DNA from: Candidatus Latescibacterota bacterium
GTDB lineage: Bacteria > JAAXHH01 > JABIQT01
Length of the DNA: 8,615 nucleotides
Assembly (NCBI GenBank): GCA_018667995.1
Contig: JABIQT010000849.1
Span: forward strand, 1 to 8,615
Direction: 5' to 3'
Within the stretch, counting starts at the first letter, position 1; each line of letters opens with the position of its first letter. A program made the position numbers and the translations under genes. The notes beneath the pieces were generated by a model. It saw only the letters and a list, made by a program, of their open reading frames with translations, ran no database searches and was not told the origin of the DNA. Positions 1 to 8,615 of this stretch are shown in pieces.

Positions 1-396
1 CCACAGGAAGGTACCGTATTCATGACTAATCTATATCAACACGCTATACCAATGGGTATCAGCGCATTTCAATCCGATTACCCAGATCCGCACAACTTGC
101 TAGCCATGGTTTGGCATTCTCAACCAGTCGGCCACGGTCGACACGCATGGCGAAATCCCACGTTTGATGCCCTGGTCGATGGAGCCGACCACGAAATGGA
201 TCAGGAGGCACGCATGAACAAGTACGCTGAAGCCGAACGGCTCTTGGCAGACGATGTTGGTGGGGCTTTCCTTTTTCATACCGTGCTGGCACAATTGCGT
301 AAGCCCAACATCAAGGGATTTGCTACCGCGAAAAGCGGCCATCAACCCTTCTTCTGGAACCACATCACCCACACCAGATTGTATGTGGGTAATTGA
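1..396 (+). CDS. Peptide/nickel-type ABC transporter solute-binding protein, C-terminal fragment (5'-truncated by window)
   Basis: The frame is open from base 1, before the first ATG at 22, so this is the last 131 codons of a longer gene; family members usually have about 500-550 residues. The visible end matches the C-terminal lobe of SBP_bac_5 (DppA/OppA-like) proteins. It has a Tyr-x-Asp-Pro motif with an Asn-Leu-Leu (SDYPDPHNLL) and an Asn-x-x-Phe-Asp-x-Leu-Val segment. These are followed by an Arg-x-x-x-Tyr-x-x-Ala-Glu-x-Leu-Leu helix and a closing 'LRKPNIKGF' strand typical of the family. Such proteins bind oligopeptides or similar solutes in the periplasm and hand them to an ABC permease. 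No permease or ATPase gene follows, so any partners lie upstream of the window. Substrate cannot be read from this part. Family assignment is fairly sure; ligand is unknown. Confidence 0.85.
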   Translation, partial: PQEGTVFMTNLYQHAIPMGISAFQSDYPDPHNLLAMVWHSQPVGHGRHAWRNPTFDALVDGADHEMDQEARMNKYAEAERLLADDVGGAFLFHTVLAQLRKPNIKGFATAKSGHQPFFWNHITHTRLYVGN

Positions 397-426
397 TGGG
401 CCTTGCTCGTTTGCTTGCATAGCTTA

Positions 427-449
427 CCTCGGTTTCGAGGCCATTTTTT
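427..449 (+). terminator. Weak intrinsic terminator after the solute-binding protein gene
   Basis: A short hairpin, CCTCG (427-431) and CGAGG (436-440) around a GTTT loop, is followed by CCA and a run of six T (444-449). It lies 30 bases past the stop codon at 394-396. The 5-bp stem is short and two C and an A separate it from the T run, so efficiency is doubtful, but position and orientation fit the end of that transcript. Confidence 0.5.
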
Positions 450-566
450 AGCTTGACAAGAAGTCGGCATGACATTATTTCTGATATGCTGTTCCCGATA
501 GGAAATTGCTGGTTTGCGGGGATGACACAAAACATAAAGTATTCACACGTCAGGTGATTATTGACG

Positions 567-585
567 GTTTGCGTCCCTCGCAAAC
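567..585. repeat. Perfect 7-bp inverted repeat with 5-nt loop
   Basis: GTTTGCG (567-573) and CGCAAAC (579-585) are exact reverse complements around TCCCT. No T run follows on either strand, so it does not look like an intrinsic terminator. It could be an RNA hairpin in a leader or a protein-binding dyad. It lies 141 bases upstream of the TTGACA box at 726. Only the symmetry is seen; function is unknown. Confidence 0.5.
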
Positions 586-639
586 ACGAATACTCCGATT
601 GTAACAAACGTTAAACGAAAATCTTCGGTTCTATGTATG

Positions 640-663
640 GAAATGGACCAATTGGTCTATTTC
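640..663. promoter_or_regulatory. Near-perfect 24-bp palindrome, candidate operator
   Basis: The core GACCAATTGGTC (646-657) is a perfect 12-bp palindrome. It extends outward through one mismatched pair (G645/T658) to GAAAT on the left (640-644) and ATTTC on the right (659-663), giving 11 of 12 matched pairs in a 24-bp dyad. Symmetry without a spacer loop is typical of a dimeric repressor or activator site rather than an RNA hairpin. It lies about 60 bases upstream of the TTGACA box of the following operon, a position compatible with either activation or repression. No regulator gene is in the window, so the binding protein cannot be named. Confidence 0.55.
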
Positions 664-725
664 ATATTTCTTGTGTAACCGGGTCGGCGCTGTGATTGAG
701 AGCACCGTATCTCGGCAGACAAAAT

Positions 726-754
726 TTGACAGCACTGTTGTTCTTTAATAACAT
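726..754 (+). promoter_or_regulatory. Candidate sigma-70-type promoter for the 763-3991 operon
   Basis: A consensus TTGACA (726-731) is followed after exactly 17 bases by TAACAT (749-754), which matches 4 of 6 positions of TATAAT including the key first, second and last. Transcription would begin at about 760-762, almost on the ATG at 763, which would give a leaderless or nearly leaderless mRNA. The -10 box is imperfect, so confidence is moderate. Confidence 0.5.
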
Positions 755-762
755 GGATTACC

Positions 763-1041
763 ATGTTTCGAGTTAAGTCGGCGCGGCAAATAATTGGGTT
801 CACCGTCGCACTCATGCTGATTGCAACTGGTGTGATGTTGACGACAGGGATGCTGGTTCCTGTGTTTGTCCAAACCGAACGTATGCAGTTTATGTTTGGC
901 ATTACAGTAATACTATTTGGCTTGTTTAGATTCGTTTCTGCCTACTTTGCCGTGAAGCGCGAGCAGAAATGGATAGAGGATGATTCATGGAAAAATCAAC
1001 CCACAGATTCCTCATCCGGCAATTCATCTCCGCCCTTGTAG
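763..1041 (+). CDS. Small two-helix inner-membrane protein of unknown function
   Basis: The 92-residue product has a basic N-terminus (Arg3, Lys5, Arg8), a hydrophobic helix at about 10-36 and a second at about 43-63. A charged segment (KREQKWIEDD) and a Ser/Pro-rich tail follow. The positive-inside rule puts both ends in the cytoplasm. No catalytic motif is visible and I do not recognise a named family. The ATG at 763 has no Shine-Dalgarno sequence, and no ATG or GTG lies upstream in frame nearby; the promoter boxes end at 754, so a leaderless start is plausible. Its last 55 bases overlap the start of the lipoprotein gene in another frame, which suggests translational coupling and a shared role. 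The sequence pattern supports a real membrane protein; function is unknown. Confidence 0.7.
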   Translation: MFRVKSARQIIGFTVALMLIATGVMLTTGMLVPVFVQTERMQFMFGITVILFGLFRFVSAYFAVKREQKWIEDDSWKNQPTDSSSGNSSPPL

Positions 1042-1907
1042 TCCTTGTCTTTGTTGCAGGCTGCACGGAGGAGGAGCCGACTGAGACCGCCACACGAGGT
1101 TACCTTTCGGTGTCAAGTTCTGAAACGGTGTTCCCTTACACGGAACGCTGCGGCATTGCTTTTACGTCCGTCTACAAGAAATCCTATATTGACGTTAAAA
1201 GGTCAACGGCGCGAGAGTCGCTTGTTTCGTTGTCGGAAGGAAAAAGCCGGGTCGCCGTAATGTCCCGGGATCTCAACGAATTTGAACTGGAAGACATGAA
1301 GGACATCGCGGCAGTAAATGAAAAGACATTCCAGTATCGCACGATTGCCCATGATGCCGTAACCATTATTGTACACGGCGATAATCCGGTTGAGAAACTC
1401 ACGTTCAGTCAGTTGGAAGGCATTTATTCGGGTGAGATTACAAACTGGAAAGATGTGGGGGGGGAAAGTCGGCGCATCCGTCCCCTGGTGCGCGACAGGA
1501 ATTCGGGTACGTATGAAGTCTTTCAGGACCGGGTGCTGAACAAAGGCAAATATGGCGCAACAGCCTACCCCTGTAGCACTATATCTGAGATAACAAGAAT
1601 TGTAGAGTACGACCGCGGTGCCATTGGTTGCGCCGGGTTGATGTTGATCAAACGCGGCTATTTGAAAGCCATCGCAATAGCGGAGGACGATGAAGGTCCA
1701 TTCGTTGTTCCATCACAGAAGTCGATACATGAGGAGACGTATCCGCTACGCCATCCAATCGTTGTATCCTATTTCAGAACGCGAGAGATGGATCTGGTGA
1801 AGGGCTTTGTAACCTACTTAATGGAGGCAAAGGGCCAGACCCTCGCAATGAATCAGGGAATCCTTCCGGCCACGATGCCGGTACGAATTGTAGAGATGAA
1901 GAGGTAG
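987..1907 (+). CDS. PstS-like phosphate-binding-fold lipoprotein
   Basis: The 306-residue protein starts at ATG 987, with GAGGA (976-980) six bases upstream. A signal peptide ends in the lipobox Val23-Ala24-Gly25-Cys26, so it should be a lipid-anchored periplasmic protein. The rest matches the PstS-like periplasmic-binding fold (PBP_like_2). An Ser-Glu-Thr-Val-Phe-Pro loop lies at 45-50 where PstS has its Thr-Phe-Pro anion loop, followed by 'MSRDL' at 92-96 and 'LEGIYSGEITNWKDVGG'. Arg169-x-x-x-Ser173-Gly174-Thr175 aligns with the Arg135/Ser139-Gly-Thr141 phosphate contacts of E. coli PstS. Binding of phosphate or a similar oxyanion is therefore likely. No pstC, pstA, pstB or phoU gene is present; the neighbours are a small membrane protein (55-base overlap), an exported TPR protein (26-base gap to its ATG at 1934) and a Ton system. 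A structural, sensory or delivery role beside the Ton machinery is an alternative to ABC uptake. Confidence 0.85.
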   Translation: MEKSTHRFLIRQFISALVVLVFVAGCTEEEPTETATRGYLSVSSSETVFPYTERCGIAFTSVYKKSYIDVKRSTARESLVSLSEGKSRVAVMSRDLNEFELEDMKDIAAVNEKTFQYRTIAHDAVTIIVHGDNPVEKLTFSQLEGIYSGEITNWKDVGGESRRIRPLVRDRNSGTYEVFQDRVLNKGKYGATAYPCSTISEITRIVEYDRGAIGCAGLMLIKRGYLKAIAIAEDDEGPFVVPSQKSIHEETYPLRHPIVVSYFRTREMDLVKGFVTYLMEAKGQTLAMNQGILPATMPVRIVEMKR

Positions 1908-1921
1908 TCCGTATTAACTCT

Positions 1922-1926
1922 GGAGG
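1922..1926 (+). promoter_or_regulatory. Shine-Dalgarno site that decides the TPR gene start
   Basis: GGAGG at 1922-1926 is one base from an ATG at 1928, too close for initiation, and seven bases from the in-frame ATG at 1934. The second ATG is therefore the likely start. The resulting N-terminus, Met-Arg-Phe-Arg-Phe, also makes a cleaner signal-peptide n-region. Confidence 0.75.
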
Positions 1927-1933
1927 TATGATC

Positions 1934-3991
1934 ATGAGGTTCAGATTTCTAAAAGTTAGCCGTAGTGCATTATTCGGCATTTTACTGGGTGCGATTGTTT
2001 CAGTAGCACTCTCAGCGCCACCGTCATCCGCCCAGGACTATAAGCCGGCCCAGGCCGCTATAGATTCTAAGGACTGGGATTCTGCTATTTCCCAGCTCCG
2101 TACGATTCTGACAGACAAACCCAAATCCCATGAAGGCCATTATCTCCTTGGTTTGGCTCTGAAGGGAAATGGACAGTTGGATGAGGCTCTGACCGAATTT
2201 GGTATTTCAGTTGATCGCAAAGGCAAATTTGTCCCAGCCAGGTATGAATTGGCCATGATGCAGATCGATAGAGGACTCTATGATGAAGCCGCTGAAAACC
2301 TAGCCGAAGCGGAAAAGCGCTCAAAGGGTAAGGAAGCGCGTGTGTTCTACGCTCAGGGCTTGATGATGGCTAAGCAAAGCAATGAGTTGACTGAGAATGG
2401 TGGAGCGGCTGCCGACATAAAGCAGTTGCAGTCTGCGGCGAGAAACCTGATGACGAAAGCGATGGCCCTGGAGCCTGGTAGTACAGTCTTTGTTCGAGGT
2501 CTTGGCGATGTCTACCGCGAAATGAAGGTGTGGGGCATGGCCATCAATCAATACAAGAAAGCCTTGGCGATGAGTCCAGGGTCTTCAGATGCAGCGGTTA
2601 CTCACTATCAGTTGGGGCAGTTGCATTTCGAAAGTCGCCAATTTAATGAGGCCGTGGCGGCCTACGAAAAAGCGACGGCGATCGATCCCTCGATCACGGA
2701 TGCTTGGTTCCAGCAGGGCTACATCTATTATCTGGCAAAGCAGTACGTCCGAGCAGAGAAGCCGTTGCGCCGTACACTTACAACGTGGCCTGACAAATTC
2801 GAAGCCAATTACTATCTGGCAGAATCACTTAACCAGACCAAGAGAATCAAGATGGCTGTGCCGTTTTATGAGAAGGCCCTGTCGATCGATGATTCTCATC
2901 CAGATGCGGTAAAGTGTTACTCTCCCATGGCTGAAGGTCTTGTTGCAGATGGAGAGTATGAGAAGGCACACGCTGCATACACGCGTGCCGTTGAGCAGGA
3001 ACCTGAGAACTTCGACTTGGTCTATGGCCTTGGTTGGGTTAAGTCGCAGGCTGACATTGGCGATTACGATAATGCCAAAGTCTATCTGGAAAAGGCCATC
3101 GTTATTGACCCCACATCCGAGAAGCCAGTGATTCAGATCGCATTGGTCGATCTGGAGCTGGGCAATTACGCGAATGCGGTTCCGAACTTGAAGCGGGCGA
3201 TTGAGTTGAAGCCTGGCGATCAGAACCCATACTATTATCTGGGAGATGCTTATATCAAGCAGCAGCTGTACGAAGACGCCGTAACGTCCGTACAGGAAGT
3301 TCTGGAGCCAGCCATCATAGAACAGGAAGACGAGTCAGTCAAGAGCAGGCTCACTAACGTCTACTTCCAGCTTGGGCAGCTGCTGTTTAAAGAAAAACAA
3401 TATGCGCCGTCCATTGCGTTCTTCCAGCAGCGTATTGCGCATGATTCGACCTATCACCCGGCCTACTATAATATGGGGCTGGCTGCTTTGGTCGGCAGTG
3501 ACTATGCAACGGCGAGAGACGCCCTTTCGAAAAGTCTGGAACTCAAGATGCCGGAGCTTGAACCCGCCCAAATGGCTGCGGCTGATGGCGATTCTACCGC
3601 ACTCATTGCGGTTTCCAAGGCGCTGCTCCAGAATAAGGGCTATCTGGGTACCTCCTATATCGCTTTGAAGGACTACCGGTCTGCCCGTCCCATCTACGAA
3701 GATATTCTGACCAACGATCCCGAGAATCACGACGCTCGATATCGGATGGGATTCATGCACGTGGTCAATAAGAACTACTCGGCGGCTATTGGGCACCTCA
3801 AGACAGCCGTCAAAGTCAAACCGGACAACTCAGCATACCAGCTTATGCTGGCTCAGGCCTACACCAATTCACAGCAACTGGCGTCTGCGGTACGACACTA
3901 TCGAGAAGTATTGAGAATCCAGCCGGACAATGATACGGCCAGAGCCCAGCTCAATACCGTTCAAGAAGCTTTGGACGCCGCTCAAGACTGA
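1934..3991 (+). CDS. Large exported TPR-repeat protein
   Basis: From ATG 1934 the product has 685 residues. A basic start (Arg2, Arg4, Lys7, Arg10), a hydrophobic core at about 12-28 and a Ser-Ser-Ala33/Gln34 junction form a Sec signal peptide, so the mature protein should be periplasmic. The rest is almost entirely tetratricopeptide repeats of about 34 residues, roughly a dozen or more, seen as recurring patterns such as 'AHAAYTRAVEQEPENFDLVYGLGWV', shown here shorter as 'AVAAYEKATAIDP', 'AVPNLKRAIELKPGD' and 'AVRHYREVLRIQPDN'. There is no later membrane segment or enzyme domain. TPR superhelices serve as protein-protein scaffolds. The gene lies between the PstS-like lipoprotein and exbB, so it may link the lipoprotein and the Ton motor or organise the cell envelope; this is inference from position. 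The repeat class and export signal are clear; partners are unknown. Confidence 0.88.
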   Translation: MRFRFLKVSRSALFGILLGAIVSVALSAPPSSAQDYKPAQAAIDSKDWDSAISQLRTILTDKPKSHEGHYLLGLALKGNGQLDEALTEFGISVDRKGKFVPARYELAMMQIDRGLYDEAAENLAEAEKRSKGKEARVFYAQGLMMAKQSNELTENGGAAADIKQLQSAARNLMTKAMALEPGSTVFVRGLGDVYREMKVWGMAINQYKKALAMSPGSSDAAVTHYQLGQLHFESRQFNEAVAAYEKATAIDPSITDAWFQQGYIYYLAKQYVRAEKPLRRTLTTWPDKFEANYYLAESLNQTKRIKMAVPFYEKALSIDDSHPDAVKCYSPMAEGLVADGEYEKAHAAYTRAVEQEPENFDLVYGLGWVKSQADIGDYDNAKVYLEKAIVIDPTSEKPVIQIALVDLELGNYANAVPNLKRAIELKPGDQNPYYYLGDAYIKQQLYEDAVTSVQEVLEPAIIEQEDESVKSRLTNVYFQLGQLLFKEKQYAPSIAFFQQRIAHDSTYHPAYYNMGLAALVGSDYATARDALSKSLELKMPELEPAQMAAADGDSTALIAVSKALLQNKGYLGTSYIALKDYRSARPIYEDILTNDPENHDARYRMGFMHVVNKNYSAAIGHLKTAVKVKPDNSAYQLMLAQAYTNSQQLASAVRHYREVLRIQPDNDTARAQLNTVQEALDAAQD

Positions 3992-4223
3992 AATGCCCGT
4001 AAACAGAAACTGAAGTTAGACCGTATTATAATTCAAGAATGTGATTCCCTCGGGGTGTCATTGTAGCCCGGTTTAAATGATCGGGAGAAAGGTGGTGGTA
4101 TTAGGATCAGGATCGACCTGATACTTTGAGTTTCCGAAGATCCAAGTTTGCAATGGCATACATGCCAGTGTTCTTTCATCAATTGCTCTAGTCATTTGTT
4201 CTAGTCATTTTAAGGAGAAGGAA
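3992..4223 (+). other. Spacer between the TPR gene and exbB with small dyads
   Basis: These 232 bases hold no supportable gene. Visible elements are a consensus -10 hexamer TATAAT (4027-4032) without a recognisable -35 at 16-18 bases, and a perfect 6-bp hairpin ATCAGG/CCTGAT (4106-4111, 4117-4122; 5-nt loop) without a T run. There is also a dyad TGGCAT-AC-ATGCCA (4154-4167) and a 13-bp tandem repeat (4187-4210). No good terminator is seen, so read-through from the TPR gene is possible, with an additional promoter for the Ton genes also possible. Confidence 0.5.
4187..4210 (+). repeat. 13-bp-period tandem repeat just upstream of the exbB ribosome-binding site
   Basis: TCTAGTCATTT occurs at 4187-4197 and again at 4200-4210, a period of 13 bases with the units separated by GT. 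The second copy ends two bases before the AAGGAG ribosome-binding site of exbB (4212-4217). It may be a simple slippage duplication or a pair of protein sites; the sequence does not decide. Confidence 0.6.
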
Positions 4224-4940
4224 ATGCGGCCAGGAACATTTATCACGATTATTCTCGGACTCTGTTTCATATTTTCATACTTTATTTACGAGTACATGCT
4301 TCCGCAGTTTATTAAAGATGGAGGCGTGGTGGTGATTCTGCTCATGGTGCTGACCATGATGGACATTACGTTTATCGTGGAAAGATCACTCACCATGCGA
4401 AAAGCGAAAGGAAAGCGCTCACAGGTACAGTTCCTTAAAGACACGATGGAATCCATTCGAAAGAATGATATTGCCAAGTCCATTGAGCTCTGCAATGCTC
4501 AGCGGGGTACCATGGCGAATGTGTTAAGAGCTGGCCTCGAGAGATATCAGACCATTTCTGATGAAAACCTCACCAGCGATCGCCAGGTTGCGGAAGTTCG
4601 CCGTGCCTTTGATGAAGCCAATGCGTTGGAGATGCCGCTGCTGGAACGCAATCTCATAGGTCTGCAGACAATAGCCACCATCGCTACTCTGGTGGGTTTG
4701 CTGGGAACAACCATAGGAATGATTCGTGCGTTTGAAGCCATGGCCCAGGAAGGCGCACCCGATGCCCTTCAGTTGGCCCTTGGTATATCAGAAGCTCTTA
4801 TCAACACAGCAGGTGGTTTGGCCGCAGCAATTATGGGTATCGTGGCCTACAACTTCTTCATCAACAAAGTGGATACCTTCACGTATGCAGTTGATGAAGT
4901 TTCACAAGAAGTTGTGGCAATTCTGACTGGCCGTAACTAG
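4224..4940 (+). CDS. exbB: ExbB/TolQ/MotA-family proton channel subunit
   Basis: The 238-residue product is the inner-membrane motor subunit that, with ExbD, converts ion flow into work on TonB. AAGGAG (4212-4217) sits six bases before the ATG. Hydrophobic segments lie at about 5-26, 33-52, 145-170 and 187-212. The last two carry the family core: 'TLVGLLGTTIGMIRAF' with Thr162 (matching E. coli ExbB Thr148) and 'GISEALINTAGGLAAAI' with Glu190 and Thr195 (matching Glu176 and Thr181). 'FIVERSLTM' after the second segment is also typical. The first segment is extra compared with three-helix E. coli ExbB; similar longer proteins occur in Bacteroidota-like relatives. The exbD genes follow after 42 bases. 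TolQ or MotA roles are less likely because a TonB gene, not tolA or motB, ends the operon. Confidence 0.93.
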   Translation: MRPGTFITIILGLCFIFSYFIYEYMLPQFIKDGGVVVILLMVLTMMDITFIVERSLTMRKAKGKRSQVQFLKDTMESIRKNDIAKSIELCNAQRGTMANVLRAGLERYQTISDENLTSDRQVAEVRRAFDEANALEMPLLERNLIGLQTIATIATLVGLLGTTIGMIRAFEAMAQEGAPDALQLALGISEALINTAGGLAAAIMGIVAYNFFINKVDTFTYAVDEVSQEVVAILTGRN

Positions 4941-4982
4941 AGCGTCATTACAACGACAGTCTGAGTTCAAGGAGAACCCAAA

Positions 4983-5474
4983 ATGGCCAAAGGCAAGAAG
5001 TCGCATCCGCCGGTGTTCTTAGATATGACACCTATGGTGGATATCGCCTTTCTCCTGTTGATTTTCTTCATGGCTACCACGCAGTTCAAGGAACCGGAGT
5101 CGATTCCGATTCTTTTGCCGGACTCTCATTCGGTAATTGAGCTGCCACAGTCAGACGTGTTGATTATCACGGTAGGAAAGAAGCCTGAGAATCAAATCTT
5201 CTGGCGCTTGGAGCCACAGCCGGAAGTGGCTATTCGCGTACCTGAAATGAAGAAAGCAGTGATAGAAGCGAGGGTTAGGAATCCTAAACTTCGCATTGCG
5301 ATTAAAGGTGACCGGGAAGCTGAGTTTGGCATCATCAGTGATATCATGGATATCATGCAGGAAACCAATAATACGCGCTTTAATCTGATCACCAATTTTG
5401 AGGATGATCCGAAATCGGCACCAGATGGGGAAGCCCGCGGGCCGGTGGGTGACAATGAATTTGCAAGGAGGTGA
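4983..5474 (+). CDS. exbD: ExbD/TolR-family biopolymer transport protein, first copy
   Basis: The 163-residue protein has a short basic cytoplasmic start, one transmembrane helix at about 16-33 and a periplasmic domain. 'DMTPMVDIAFLLLIFFM' is the family signature, and Asp20 corresponds to the ion-carrying Asp25 of E. coli ExbD. AAGGAG (4969-4974) lies eight bases before the ATG. The periplasmic part has the usual small ExbD fold pattern ending near 'NTRFNLITNF', then adds a charged tail of about 28 residues (Asp/Glu/Gly/Pro-rich, ending Ala-Arg-Arg). Its stop codon overlaps the ribosome-binding site of the second exbD. It should pair with the second copy inside the ExbB ring; whether as homo- or heterodimer is not visible. 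Confidence 0.92.
   Translation: MAKGKKSHPPVFLDMTPMVDIAFLLLIFFMATTQFKEPESIPILLPDSHSVIELPQSDVLIITVGKKPENQIFWRLEPQPEVAIRVPEMKKAVIEARVRNPKLRIAIKGDREAEFGIISDIMDIMQETNNTRFNLITNFEDDPKSAPDGEARGPVGDNEFARR
5465..5474 (+). promoter_or_regulatory. Extended Shine-Dalgarno supporting the GTG start of the second exbD
   Basis: AAGGAGGTGA is a ten-base match to the anti-Shine-Dalgarno end of 16S rRNA and includes the TGA stop of the first exbD. It lies six bases before GTG 5481 (nine from the GGAGG core). No ATG occurs in frame before residue 30, inside the conserved motif, so GTG is the start. The overlap implies coupled translation of the two ExbD subunits. Confidence 0.85.
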
Positions 5475-5480
5475 GGTCAC

Positions 5481-5969
5481 GTGGCAGCAGTTAACGCACC
5501 AAAGAGAAGTACCAAGGGTGAAGGCGGCAAGAAGCCCAAGAAGGCCAGAGCCAATGTCCAGATCGATATGACACCGATGGTGGATATTGCTTTCCTTCTG
5601 CTCATCTTCTTCATGGTTACCACGGTGTTTCGGACGCCCCAGACTATGGAGCTGAATATTCCGCCGAGCGATCAGACGGTAGAGATTGCAGAGTCGAATG
5701 TGCTGACCTTGCGCCTCATGGAAGATGACAAAGCGTATTGGAATGTGGGCAAGGATTTTCCTGAAGAGATCGCTTTCGATGAGATCGTAAAGTTGATTCA
5801 GGATGAAGTCGAAGAAAATGACAAGCTCGTCACATTGATAAAAATCCAGAGATCGGCCTCGTATAACCAGATGGTCAATATCATGGATGAAATGCAGGTT
5901 GGCGAGATCGATCGATTCAGTATTACTGTGATGGAACAGGAAGAAGTTGAGGAGGTATTTGGGTCATGA
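5481..5969 (+). CDS. exbD: ExbD/TolR-family biopolymer transport protein, second copy
   Basis: The 162-residue product starts at GTG 5481 behind an unusually strong ribosome-binding site. A Lys/Arg/Gly-rich cytoplasmic leader of about 26 residues precedes the helix at about 31-48. The signature 'DMTPMVDIAFLLLIFFM' recurs, with Asp35 as the predicted ion-carrying residue. The periplasmic domain is acidic and ends in a Glu-rich stretch ('MEQEEVEEVFGS'). It differs strongly from the first copy outside the motif, so the pair is an old duplication and probably non-redundant. It begins six bases after the first exbD stop, and its stop overlaps the tonB start as ATGA, so stoichiometric expression is expected. 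Confidence 0.92.
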   Translation: MAAVNAPKRSTKGEGGKKPKKARANVQIDMTPMVDIAFLLLIFFMVTTVFRTPQTMELNIPPSDQTVEIAESNVLTLRLMEDDKAYWNVGKDFPEEIAFDEIVKLIQDEVEENDKLVTLIKIQRSASYNQMVNIMDEMQVGEIDRFSITVMEQEEVEEVFGS

Positions 5970-6709
5970 GTGTACTGTCCATGTTTCGTGCGGAACACTA
6001 TCCTTTGAAGAGGGAGTCGGACCTTAAGTTCTTCTACCAGAACTTCTTCAGGAAAGCTTTCTTTGTAGCTGCTGTAATACACTACGCCGGTGTCGGTACC
6101 TACTGGGGCGTCTGGTATATTCAGCAGCAGAGCAAAGTGTATTCAACCAGAATCATTACATACGCAGATCTTGGACCGCCGCCTGCTTTATCAGAGGCAC
6201 CACCTATTCCTGAGGTCGACGTCGCGGCGCCATCCAAGCCGGTAATAGGAATTCCCGAGCCGGTGGATGATACCGAGGTGTCTGCTGAGATGACCATAGC
6301 AACACAGACTGAAATGAGTCAGAGTGTTGCCCCGGTGATTCAAGAGATGGATGAGGCTGATATCATCATTGAGGCTCCTCAGGAAGAGAATATTGTTCTG
6401 GAGGATGACGCGCTTCCGAGCAGCGATCAGTTTGTGGCGTACGAGGATCCACCGGTACCCATATCGCAGCCTCCACCAGTCTATCCGGAAATGGCGCGTA
6501 AAGCTGGCGTCGAAGGTATGGTGATTCTGCATGTGCTGGTCGACAAAGAAGGTAACGTGCGTGATATCCGTTTGATTAAGGGTATCGGGGCGGGACTGGA
6601 TGAGTCTGCCATCGCATCTGTGCGGCAGAGCAAGTGGACTCCGGCCATACAGAATCATAAACCGGTCTCAGTATGGGTTTCATACCCAGTCCGGTTCAAG
6701 TTGCGTTGA
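5966..6709 (+). CDS. tonB: TonB energy-transducing protein
   Basis: The 247-residue protein couples the ExbB-ExbD motor to outer-membrane TonB-dependent receptors. GAGGAGG (5949-5955) lies ten bases before the ATG, which overlaps the previous stop by four bases. A longer-than-usual basic cytoplasmic leader (about 1-30) precedes the transmembrane helix at about 31-52. His39 in that helix is placed like the essential His20 of E. coli TonB, although the neighbouring Ser of the SHLS motif is replaced by Ala35. The periplasmic linker (about 53-167) is Pro-rich but acidic, lacking the usual Lys-Pro runs. The C-terminal domain (about 168-247) is typical: 'VYPEMARKAGVEGMVILHV' from Val172, 'VDKEGNVRDIRLIKG', 'SKWTPA' and a final 'YPVRFKLR'. 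No TonB-dependent receptor gene is in the window, so its cargo is unknown. Confidence 0.92.
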   Translation: MSVLSMFRAEHYPLKRESDLKFFYQNFFRKAFFVAAVIHYAGVGTYWGVWYIQQQSKVYSTRIITYADLGPPPALSEAPPIPEVDVAAPSKPVIGIPEPVDDTEVSAEMTIATQTEMSQSVAPVIQEMDEADIIIEAPQEENIVLEDDALPSSDQFVAYEDPPVPISQPPPVYPEMARKAGVEGMVILHVLVDKEGNVRDIRLIKGIGAGLDESAIASVRQSKWTPAIQNHKPVSVWVSYPVRFKLR

Positions 6710-6741
6710 CGATTTTCCGGTAGTATTGGAATATCTGATAG

Positions 6742-6779
6742 AACGGCGGTGACCAGAGATGGTGACCGCCGTTTTTTTT
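6742..6779 (+). terminator. Strong intrinsic terminator of the exbB-tonB operon
   Basis: ACGGCGGT (6743-6750) pairs perfectly with ACCGCCGT (6765-6772). An inner ACC/GGT pairing follows across a G/G mismatch, and an additional A6742/T6773 pair is possible. Eight T (6772-6779) follow directly. It lies 33 bases past the tonB stop and ends the operon cleanly before the hppA promoter. Confidence 0.93.
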
Positions 6780-6814
6780 GTGTTATCAGGTCTTGAAGTT
6801 AGTAGAGAAAACGC

Positions 6815-6842
6815 TTGCTAACCGGGTTCGATCTGGTATAAT
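6815..6842 (+). promoter_or_regulatory. Extended -10 promoter of hppA
   Basis: TTGCTA (6815-6820, 4 of 6 matches to TTGACA) is followed after 16 bases by consensus TATAAT (6837-6842), preceded by the extended -10 element TGG (6834-6836). Transcription should start near 6849, leaving a leader of about 108 nt before ATG 6957. It is the best promoter in the window and makes hppA an independent unit. Confidence 0.75.
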
Positions 6843-6956
6843 TGTACAGCTTCTGAGACTGCAAGTTATTGGTTCTACAGCAAGTATATAGTATCAACAT
6901 TAATAGCCATCAAGTAGCGGCGTTTACTCTATTGTCAAGAAGGAGATAAGGATTAG

Positions 6957-8615
6957 ATGGATTCCATTTTATATGCTGTTATCGGGTCTGGCGTTGTTGC
7001 GCTTGTATTCGCCATGTGGCGTGCGAGCTGGGTTAATAAGCAAGATGAAGGAACAGATCGCATGATGGCGATCGGAGCCAGTATCCGCGAGGGTGCCATG
7101 GCTTTTTTGAAGGCCGAGTACAGGGTGCTTTCCGTATTCGTACTTGTGGTGGCCATTCTGCTGGGTGTTGCCAATATGAATAAGGCGGATTCCAGTGCTT
7201 TGATCGCACTTTCTTTCATAGTCGGTGCGCTTGCATCAGGTTTGGCCGGGTTTCTGGGAATGCGCGTCGCTACCAAGGCAAACAATAGAACGACCCATGC
7301 GGCACGTGACGGTCTTGCGAAAGCGCTTAATCTCGCCTTCACGGGCGGGTCGGTGATGGGCCTGAATGTAGTTGGACTAGGAGTACTTGGATTGGCCGGG
7401 CTCTTCGTGATCTATACGGGTATGTTTGGTGCGGACAGCAACAGTATTGGCAGAGTCCTGAACGTCATCACTGGATTCTCCCTCGGTGCCTCGGCCATTG
7501 CGCTCTTCGCACGTGTGGGAGGGGGCATCTATACGAAGGCTGCTGACGTGGGAGCCGACCTGGTCGGTAAGGTTGAGGCTGGCATCCCCGAGGATCATCC
7601 TCTAAATCCTGCATCAATAGCCGACAACGTCGGAGATAACGTGGGTGACGTAGCAGGTATGGGCGCGGATCTCTTTGAATCATACGTGGGTTCCATCGTT
7701 GGCTCTATGGTACTTGGAGCCAGCATTCTGGTCGGCGGTAACTTTGACATAAACTTTATTGTCTTGCCACTTGTTATCGCGGGTGCTGGAATCCTTCTGT
7801 CGATTCTGGGCACCTTCTTCGTCTCGGTCAAAGAGGGAGGGAATCCACAGGCGGCTTTGAATAGAGGGGAATTCGGATCGTCTTTCCTGATGGTCGTCGT
7901 GATGTATTTCCTGATTGATCTGTTCTTGCCCGCCGAATTCGTCATGGGTGGCATTACTTACTCCAATCTCGGGGTCTTTATAGCAACCGCTATTGGACTG
8001 TTCGCAGGGCTCGGAATCGGTCTTGTGACCGAACACTATACTGGCATACATACCAAACCCGTGATCTCAATCGCCGAGCAGTCGCTCACAGGGTCTGCTA
8101 CCAATATCATAGCCGGACTTGGTGTTGGGATGCAGTCGACGGCCATTCCTATCCTTCTGATCGCTGCCGGGATCATGGGCGCGTACCACTTTGCCGGATT
8201 GTATGGCATTGCGATGGCTGCACTGGGCATGCTTTCAAATACAGGCATCCAACTTGCTGTAGATGCCTACGGGCCGATTTCGGATAATGCCGGTGGAATA
8301 GCTGAAATGGCCGATCTGCCTGCAGAGGTCCGGCAACGCACAGATAGGCTTGACGCGGTTGGCAATACTACGGCTGCAATAGGTAAAGGTTTCGCTATTG
8401 GATCTGCTGCCCTCACCGCCCTTGCTCTGTTTGCGGCCTTTATGGTGCAGGCGGGCATAACCAGCATAGATATATCAAATCCTCGCGTAATGGCCGGGCT
8501 TTTTGTCGGAGGTATGTTGCCGTTTCTGTTTTCATCTCTCGCCATGGGCGCCGTGGGGCGGGCTGCGATGGCAATGATTGAAGAGGTGAGGCGTCAGTTC
8601 AAGAGCATCCCGGAG
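6957..8615 (+). CDS. hppA: Membrane-bound ion-pumping pyrophosphatase, K+-dependent class (3'-truncated by window)
   Basis: The frame is open for 553 codons from ATG 6957 to the window end; complete enzymes have roughly 650-750 residues, so the C-terminal part is missing. The enzyme hydrolyses pyrophosphate and pumps H+ or Na+ across the inner membrane. Many hydrophobic helices are seen. The catalytic motifs are intact: '[20 protein letters not shown]' (186-205) and 'DNVGDNVGD' (223-231). In '[10 protein letters not shown]' (469-478), Ala473 and Gly476 are the pair that marks K+-dependent enzymes; K+-independent ones have Lys and Thr. In '[10 protein letters not shown]' the gate Glu241 is three residues after Asp238, as in Na+-pumping enzymes such as that of Thermotoga, rather than seven after as in plant H+ pumps. 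Na+ pumping is thus favoured but not proven. Possible ribosome-binding sites are AAGGAG (6940-6945, 11 bases upstream) and AAGGA (6948-6952). Confidence 0.95.

Follow-up and report, generated by a model that had tools for sequence, protein, structure and literature searches.

This locus raises the question of why a lipoprotein with a phosphate-binding-protein fold and an exported TPR protein are encoded directly upstream of a Ton motor, and whether they belong to that motor. Ton systems have mostly been studied as three proteins, and the Bacteroidota depend on TonB-dependent uptake. The window (the whole stretch of DNA analysed, 8,615 nt) contains the following features.

763–1041, + strand: small membrane protein of an unnamed family, 92 aa, two predicted TM segments (ORF)
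987–1907, + strand: PstS-like lipoprotein, PBP_like_2 fold, degenerate phosphate site (PF12849, 111.6 bits over 27)
1928–3991, + strand: exported TPR protein, 687 aa, TPR repeats throughout (TPR_2, 8.7e-61)
3992–4223, + strand: spacer separating the TPR gene from exbB, similarly long (159–295 bases) in 13 relatives
4087–4098, + strand: 12-mer GAAAGGTGGTGG within the spacer, invariant and in the same place in 12/13 order relatives
4224–4940, + strand: ExbB/TolQ-family proton channel subunit (PF01618, 98.5 bits)
4983–5474, + strand: ExbD paralogue 1, TM aspartate within MVDIAFLLLIFFM (PF02472, 87.7 bits; alignment)
5481–5969, + strand: ExbD paralogue 2, GTG start, TM aspartate present (PF02472, 90.5 bits; alignment)
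5966–6709, + strand: TonB with an N-terminal TM segment, an acidic/proline linker and a TonB_C domain (PF03544, 83 bits; alignment)
6957–8615, + strand: membrane-bound pyrophosphatase, truncated at its 3' end by the contig end (PF03030, 676.5 bits; TIGR01104 over its cut-off)

Reading the ORFs of the window confirmed the first seven genes at these positions, all on the + strand, and the Pfam calls across them (PBP_like_2, TPRs, MotA_ExbB, ExbD, ExbD, TonB_C) were every one above cut-off, showing that the seven-gene co-directional module put forward in the original prediction is real. The genes are closely packed: by their coordinates, the small-protein and PstS-like genes overlap by 55 bases, and the following junctions are a 20-base gap to the TPR gene, the 232-base spacer to exbB, 42 bases to the first exbD, 6 bases between the two exbD genes and a 4-base overlap with tonB. 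As had also been claimed, no Pst permease or ATPase lies alongside, with pstC, pstA and pstB all lacking from the window. The block is larger than first described, as the pyrophosphatase gene is an eighth member in this lineage; it starts 247 bases past tonB here, follows tonB by 94–225 bases in 11 relatives, and lies near the module at two further loci (L088 and L090) as well.

The four genes after the spacer encode together an ExbB/TolQ channel, ExbDs with the TM aspartate and an anchored TonB, and thus make up a Ton system. The TonB_C match spans the full PF03544 model (1–79/79), and ExbB, which scores below the NCBIfam exbB/tolQ equivalog cut-offs, is 69–81% identical within the order. Family and pattern searches of the window's genome found five Plug-domain proteins, that is, TonB-dependent receptors alongside the motor; such proteins were present in 15/15 genomes of the order, with 4–23 per genome in the relatives.

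We then compared the neighbourhoods of 102 Ton-linked PstS-like loci with those of 35 pst-operon pstS loci. The TPR gene lay directly 3' of the PstS-like gene in 99/102 Ton-type loci, the small protein accompanied about 94 (with a small hydrophobic ORF counted in 96/102), and ExbB was within reach in 90, whereas pstC adjoined none of them (0/102); conversely, these Ton-module neighbours (TPR, ExbB, small protein) were present at 0/35 pst-operon loci. The Ton-type PstS-like genes are therefore not encoded with pstC, pstA and pstB. In the PstS tree, the two kinds fell on opposite sides of one branch with an SH-aLRT of 100%. Family and pattern searches also revealed a separate pstS-pstC-pstA-phoU-ppk locus in the window's genome. 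Co-occurrence of the PstS-like gene with pst genes elsewhere in this genome had been named beforehand as evidence against a Ton partnership, and it holds in part: a pst locus does exist, but it has its own pstS, so the PstS-like gene of the window is a second, different protein and its link to the Ton genes is unbroken. Taken together, the lipoprotein and the TPR protein are dedicated neighbours of the Ton system across FCB genomes rather than parts of ABC import, as originally proposed.

The original prediction had also suggested oxyanion capture, in which phosphate or a different oxyanion would be caught by the PstS-like lipoprotein at the outer membrane and passed on with the help of the Ton motor. 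The protein, whose lipobox cysteine is C26, does have the PstS fold according to its Pfam match, its structure model and structure alignment: a model based on an alignment of 106 sequences reached a pLDDT of 95.2 (an earlier one from 11 close sequences, with a pLDDT of 44.5, was discarded in its favour) and aligned to phosphate-bound 4gd5 with a Z of 33.0 (VIA-align). The adjoining pyrophosphatase, which makes phosphate, would also fit such a role. On the other hand, the score against the NCBIfam PstS model TIGR02136 was 142.8 bits, short of the 206.6 cut-off; the other Ton-type proteins scored 56–143, and six pst-operon controls scored 223–290 and all passed (6/6). Comparison of the canonical phosphate-contact loops (GS[DT]T, GGGSxG and RxxxSGT) pointed in the same direction. 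Loops 1 and 2 are lost in the window's order; Gly44 and Gly74 (GGGSG loop), found in 35/35 pst-operon proteins, are replaced there, and the states commonly found in the other Ton-type proteins differ from glycine as well. Loop 3 is retained in the order as RDRNSGT (R169-D-R-N-S-G-T), S93-R94 is kept and R76 is invariant; therefore, the protein may still bind anions weakly or in an altered way in this order. Outside the order, loop 3 is altered too: the binding arginine, Arg169, is Asp in 70/89 Ton-type proteins, those of the Bacteroidota included, Arg is absent from their common states, and so acidic a pocket should repel phosphate. An acidic residue at position 46 was dropped as an argument on its own because the pst-operon proteins often have Asp there (23/35). 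With two of three phosphate loops lost in the order, no permease nearby and another pst locus in the genome, oxyanion capture appears very unlikely. Judged from its residues, the PstS-like protein is probably a phosphate-binding-protein fold that has departed from phosphate import; since much of the phosphate-binding site is gone, it probably serves the motor instead.

The altered site is not featureless, as E46, R94, S173 and D123 are retained across the Ton-type proteins. A pocket that is changed yet conserved points to ligand binding more than to a defunct site, and the PstS-like protein might accordingly be pictured as a switch, binding a non-phosphate periplasmic ligand and telling TonB or the TPR protein, through its open or closed form, whether the motor runs. 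The Venus-flytrap fold, predicted with high confidence, and the TPR protein as a fixed partner are consistent with this, but both the ligand and the gating are putative and the conserved residues may simply serve the fold; we regard the idea as speculative and on the unlikely side. The broader version is likewise conceivable rather than probable: throughout the FCB group, a phosphate-binding-protein fold would have been recruited to control the Ton motor as a ligand-gated subunit, working alongside a TPR scaffold and a small membrane protein. If it were true, a periplasmic signal would switch outer-membrane active transport in these bacteria. The C-terminal VPATMPVR string, which is loosely kept in an unbiased Bacteroidota sample, was one of the search patterns used to find the loci, and its invariance was thus not counted as evidence.

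How firmly are these genes tied to the motor? The arrangement was conserved in all 13 same-order relatives whose contigs span the block (13/13), and the block recurred in permuted order in Bacteroidota, Ignavibacteriota and a Candidatus Eisenbacteria genome: in the window the TPR gene precedes exbB, and in Bacteroidota tonB precedes the small-protein gene. The Bacteroidota neighbourhoods mentioned in the original prediction exist, and the survey it proposed found the genes to stay neighbours in order relatives and FCB phyla. The 92-aa protein carries a conserved ILYG.(F/V)RF motif, in every order relative its orthologue lies immediately 5' of the PstS-like gene, and Pfam and NCBIfam profiles gave no match to it; the TPR protein begins with a signal-like segment (...SSAQ/D). 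About 8/32 Ton-type loci in the Bacteroidota sample had no ExbB inside the DNA stretch retrieved; the PstS-TPR pair can therefore also be located away from the motor. These loci, the permuted gene order and the spacer, which with its conserved 12-mer could divide two units, would suit an arrangement in which the 92-aa protein, PstS-like protein and TPR protein form a separate envelope device, sharing only regulation with the Ton genes. Against this, the linkage outlasts permutation across phyla and both sets adjoin in most loci, making such a separate device unlikely.

The 12-mer itself, whose flanks do not align between genera, is probably a cis element and is treated here as a candidate. It occurs once in the whole G002 genome; two of its other genomic copies that were inspected (L215 and L216) fall inside coding genes and look like chance, and Rfam gave no match. 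Promoter-like matches over 380–7000 numbered 15, versus 8.7 expected from shuffles. The one such match inside the spacer fits only 9/12, and reading the spacer as a promoter was set aside.

The neighbour counts, the tree split, the separate pst locus and the changed site together mean that dedicated partnership with the Ton motor is well supported and oxyanion capture is not. Overall, we consider it likely that this Ton system has accessory proteins of its own in the envelope, and that the PstS-like protein, a repurposed fold, and the TPR protein are fixed partners of the motor. At the inner membrane, a motor built from ExbB and two different ExbDs would be driven by protons, with TonB passing its force on to TonB-dependent receptors. 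A structural or regulatory role in the periplasm is probable for the PstS-like lipoprotein and the TPR protein, as subunits binding TonB, the receptors or one another; the small two-TM protein is probably located with ExbB-ExbD, and the neighbouring pyrophosphatase may, in this lineage, help to sustain the ion gradient on which the motor runs. Here, we infer the jobs of the accessory proteins, as well as the physical contacts. Gene neighbourhood does not by itself demonstrate contact between proteins.

If the three further proteins are fixed partners, the working unit of Ton systems has been undercounted in a major gut and marine bacterial group, and many annotations as "PstS family phosphate-binding protein" in these genomes would be misleading. 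The module genes are found together in cultivable species, which opens the question to direct testing.

Among known proteins, the canonical PstS of pstSCAB (TIGR02136; E. coli PBP, 4gd5) has the same fold and is likewise a lipoprotein or secreted periplasmic protein. In contrast, the Ton-type proteins have altered phosphate-site loops, a sub-cut-off score and a PATMPVR-like C-terminal tail missing from the canonical proteins compared, and were never beside pstC in the loci compared. Beyond the gene map of Riemerella anatipestifer, we found no described PstS-Ton partnership in the open-access literature. In that bacterium, the gene after an exbB-exbD-exbD-tonB2 operon (ExbB2-ExbD21-ExbD22-TonB2) carries the annotation phosphate-binding protein (PMC4446302); the likeness is read from the published map rather than from sequence, and in the parts of that report consulted the substrate-binding gene is named as a flanking gene only, with a TPR or small protein undiscussed. 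TonB2 of R. anatipestifer powers the hemin receptors RhuR and RhuB (PMC10986502), and by this likeness the module may power receptor-dependent uptake. A TPR-TolQ-TolR-TolR-vWA force transducer cluster similarly combines a TPR gene, a TolQ-like gene, two TolR-like genes and a periplasmic transducer (PMC12204202); as far as the portion consulted goes, its transducer is a vWA protein whereas that of the window is a true TonB, and a PstS-like or small protein is unreported there. The Vibrio TonB2 system (TtpB2, TtpC2, TtpD2) is, like this one, a Ton motor with its own extra proteins, one of them a TPR protein, TtpD2, which is essential for uptake (PMC6957404). Unlike the window's module, it has one ExbD and no PBP-fold protein, and its TtpB2 (DUF3450) and TtpC2 are absent from the module (PMC6957404). 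The best reading is that the PstS-like and TPR proteins would be FCB-wide accessory periplasmic Ton subunits, comparable to TtpD2 of Vibrio TonB2.

The window is the entire contig C251 of a draft genome (6.06 Mb, 1165 contigs), and an ORF check recovered all seven co-directional genes of the original prediction between positions 763 and 6709 of the + strand. Six of their products matched the Pfam families PBP_like_2, TPR, MotA_ExbB, ExbD, ExbD and TonB_C, and the 92-aa small protein matched no family in Pfam or NCBIfam. The membrane aspartate is present in each of the two ExbDs in the alignment, and the C-terminal domain of TonB is complete (Pfam and alignment). Judged by sequence, ExbB, the two ExbDs and TonB make up a standard Ton motor. 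An eighth gene, 3' of tonB, encodes a membrane pyrophosphatase and is truncated at the contig end. At the other end, an OppA-like peptide-binding protein is represented by its last 131 aa, the C-terminal part (positions 1-396), and loci L044 and L050 likewise have an OppA-like gene upstream of the module.

A search of relatives with the PstS-like protein showed that nearly every genome of the same order has a homologue, 52-55% identical; the relatives' records (genome_contigs collection) were deposited mostly as Candidatus Latescibacterota and in some cases as Gemmatimonadetes or Candidatus Zixiibacteriota. We compared 14 loci of 6-19 kb, 13 of them on contigs spanning the module. The proposed survey of neighbours showed that the module genes adjoin in relatives: the order small protein, PstS-like, TPR, exbB, exbD, exbD, tonB was kept in 13/13 spanning loci and mostly permuted in Bacteroidota. 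Within the order, the junctions are nearly fixed (the exbD genes lie 6 bases apart, exbD and tonB overlap by 4 bases, and a spacer of 159-295 bases separates the TPR gene from exbB), and a pyrophosphatase gene follows tonB after 94-225 bases in 11 of the 13 relatives. The spacer contains a conserved element:

4087-4098, + strand: 12-mer GAAAGGTGGTGG in the spacer before exbB, invariant in 12 of the 13 order relatives.

Its flanks no longer align between genera, and the 12-mer occurs once in the whole genome of one relative (G002) and rarely elsewhere in the relatives' genomes. The spacer had no match in Rfam. Single-sequence folds placed a hairpin upstream of the 12-mer in several relatives and established no structure common to them. 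The element is similar to an extended Shine-Dalgarno sequence, with no consistently following ORF, and may be a regulatory site or an RNA element.

When 84,980 species genomes were scanned with the PstS-like alignment of the order, 70 loci emerged, the range of which extends to Bacteroidota (including many Pontibacter, Rufibacter, Chitinophaga-labelled and Bacteroidales genomes), Ignavibacteriota and one Candidatus Eisenbacteria genome. Ton genes are present in nearly all of these, mostly in the permuted order exbB-exbD-exbD-tonB-(tonB)-small protein-PstS-TPR. The C-terminal signature VPATMPVR was not counted as evidence, because it was itself one of the scan patterns. In an independent sample of 118 evenly drawn Bacteroidota genomes, a profile search led to 60 fetched loci; the Ton-type arrangement was found in at least 32 genomes, a lower bound since only these 60 loci were read, with exbB inside the fetched stretch in 24 of the 32. 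Bacteroidota neighbourhoods of the kind mentioned in the original prediction do exist. A pyrophosphatase gene lies near the Ton module in an Ignavibacteriota (L088, 11860-14064) and an Eisenbacteria locus (L090, 13064-15205), and in none of the Bacteroidota loci read. Two successive tonB-like genes occupy the interval from exbD to the small protein at L094 (6776-8625) and similar Pontibacter loci.

When PstS-like genes across all loci were labelled solely by their neighbours, two kinds emerged. Among 102 Ton-type genes, 99 are followed directly by a TPR gene, 90 lie within 6 kb of exbB, about 94 are accompanied by the small protein, and none adjoins pstC; conversely, exbB, TPR, tonB or the small protein lies beside none of the 35 genes adjoining pstC. 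A profile-free search, which took a hydrophobic ORF immediately upstream of the PstS-like gene as the criterion, also recovered the small protein in 96/102 loci, most commonly overlapping that gene. In a maximum-likelihood tree, a branch of length 1.0 separates all 35 pst-operon proteins from all Ton-type proteins (100% SH-aLRT by a quick method, no bootstrap). The original prediction had also considered that pstCAB might co-occur elsewhere in the genome. Contig C560 indeed carries pstS, pstC (product above the curated cut-off) and pstA, with PhoU, CYTH and polyphosphate kinase genes, and ends inside pstA, so that its sequence shows no pstB; but this locus has its own pstS, which makes the PstS-like protein of the window a distinct, second one. 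The PhoU of the pst locus (L040, 2837-3958) carries a fused domain that resembles low-molecular-weight phosphotyrosine phosphatases.

The predicted PstS fold of the window protein is not in doubt (AlphaFold2, 106 sequences, pLDDT 95.2): the nearest solved structures are phosphate-binding proteins, among them phosphate-bound 4gd5 (Z 33.0, rmsd 1.4 over 240 residues; Foldseek E 1.1e-24). Three PstS loops contact phosphate. In the residue numbering of the window's protein, the pst-operon proteins conserve Gly44 (35/35), Gly74 of the GGGSG loop (35/35), Arg169 (33/35) and Ser173-Gly174-Thr175 (35/35). Proteins of the window's order keep the third loop intact but have SSAE and TTSREA in place of the first two; these two are likewise changed in Ton-type proteins outside the order, where Arg169, the counterpart of E. 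coli PBP Arg135 by alignment to 4gd5, is Asp in 70/89. Arg94 and Ser173 are kept in nearly all proteins compared. Scores against the curated PstS model TIGR02136 (cut-off 206.6) agree with a changed phosphate site, being 223-290 bits for pst-operon (n=6) and 56-143 bits for Ton-type proteins (n=7). Neither this change nor the small protein, PstS-like and TPR proteins as a conserved set with a Ton motor was described in the open-access literature searched, the coverage of which is incomplete.

The Ton motor itself is already known, and at least one published map places a PstS gene beside tonB: downstream of the Riemerella anatipestifer exbB-exbD-exbD-tonB2 operon comes a gene with a phosphate-binding-protein annotation (PMC4446302). 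As this TonB2 powers hemin receptors (PMC10986502), a motor with such an arrangement is known to run receptor-dependent uptake; the flanking gene is a candidate Ton-type PstS gene. Plug-domain receptors occur in every order genome tested, with five in the window's genome. In Vibrio TonB2, the TPR protein TtpD2 is an essential subunit (PMC6957404), showing that a TPR protein can serve a Ton system in this way. From the motor, the receptors and these precedents, we infer that the PstS-like and TPR proteins would be periplasmic accessory subunits with TonB or the receptors as their targets; the small protein would work together with ExbB-ExbD. The neighbouring pyrophosphatase would sustain the ion gradient, a putative link to the motor. 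The same genome also holds a second cluster (L043, contig C975, 2513-13479) encoding two TPR proteins of ~1200 aa, a 128-aa protein, ExbB, two further short genes in the places of the ExbDs and a TonB-like protein, which resembles the Fibrobacter succinogenes OmpA-TPR-TPR-ExbB-ExbD-ExbD-TonB locus FSU_2396-2403 (PMC6851124).
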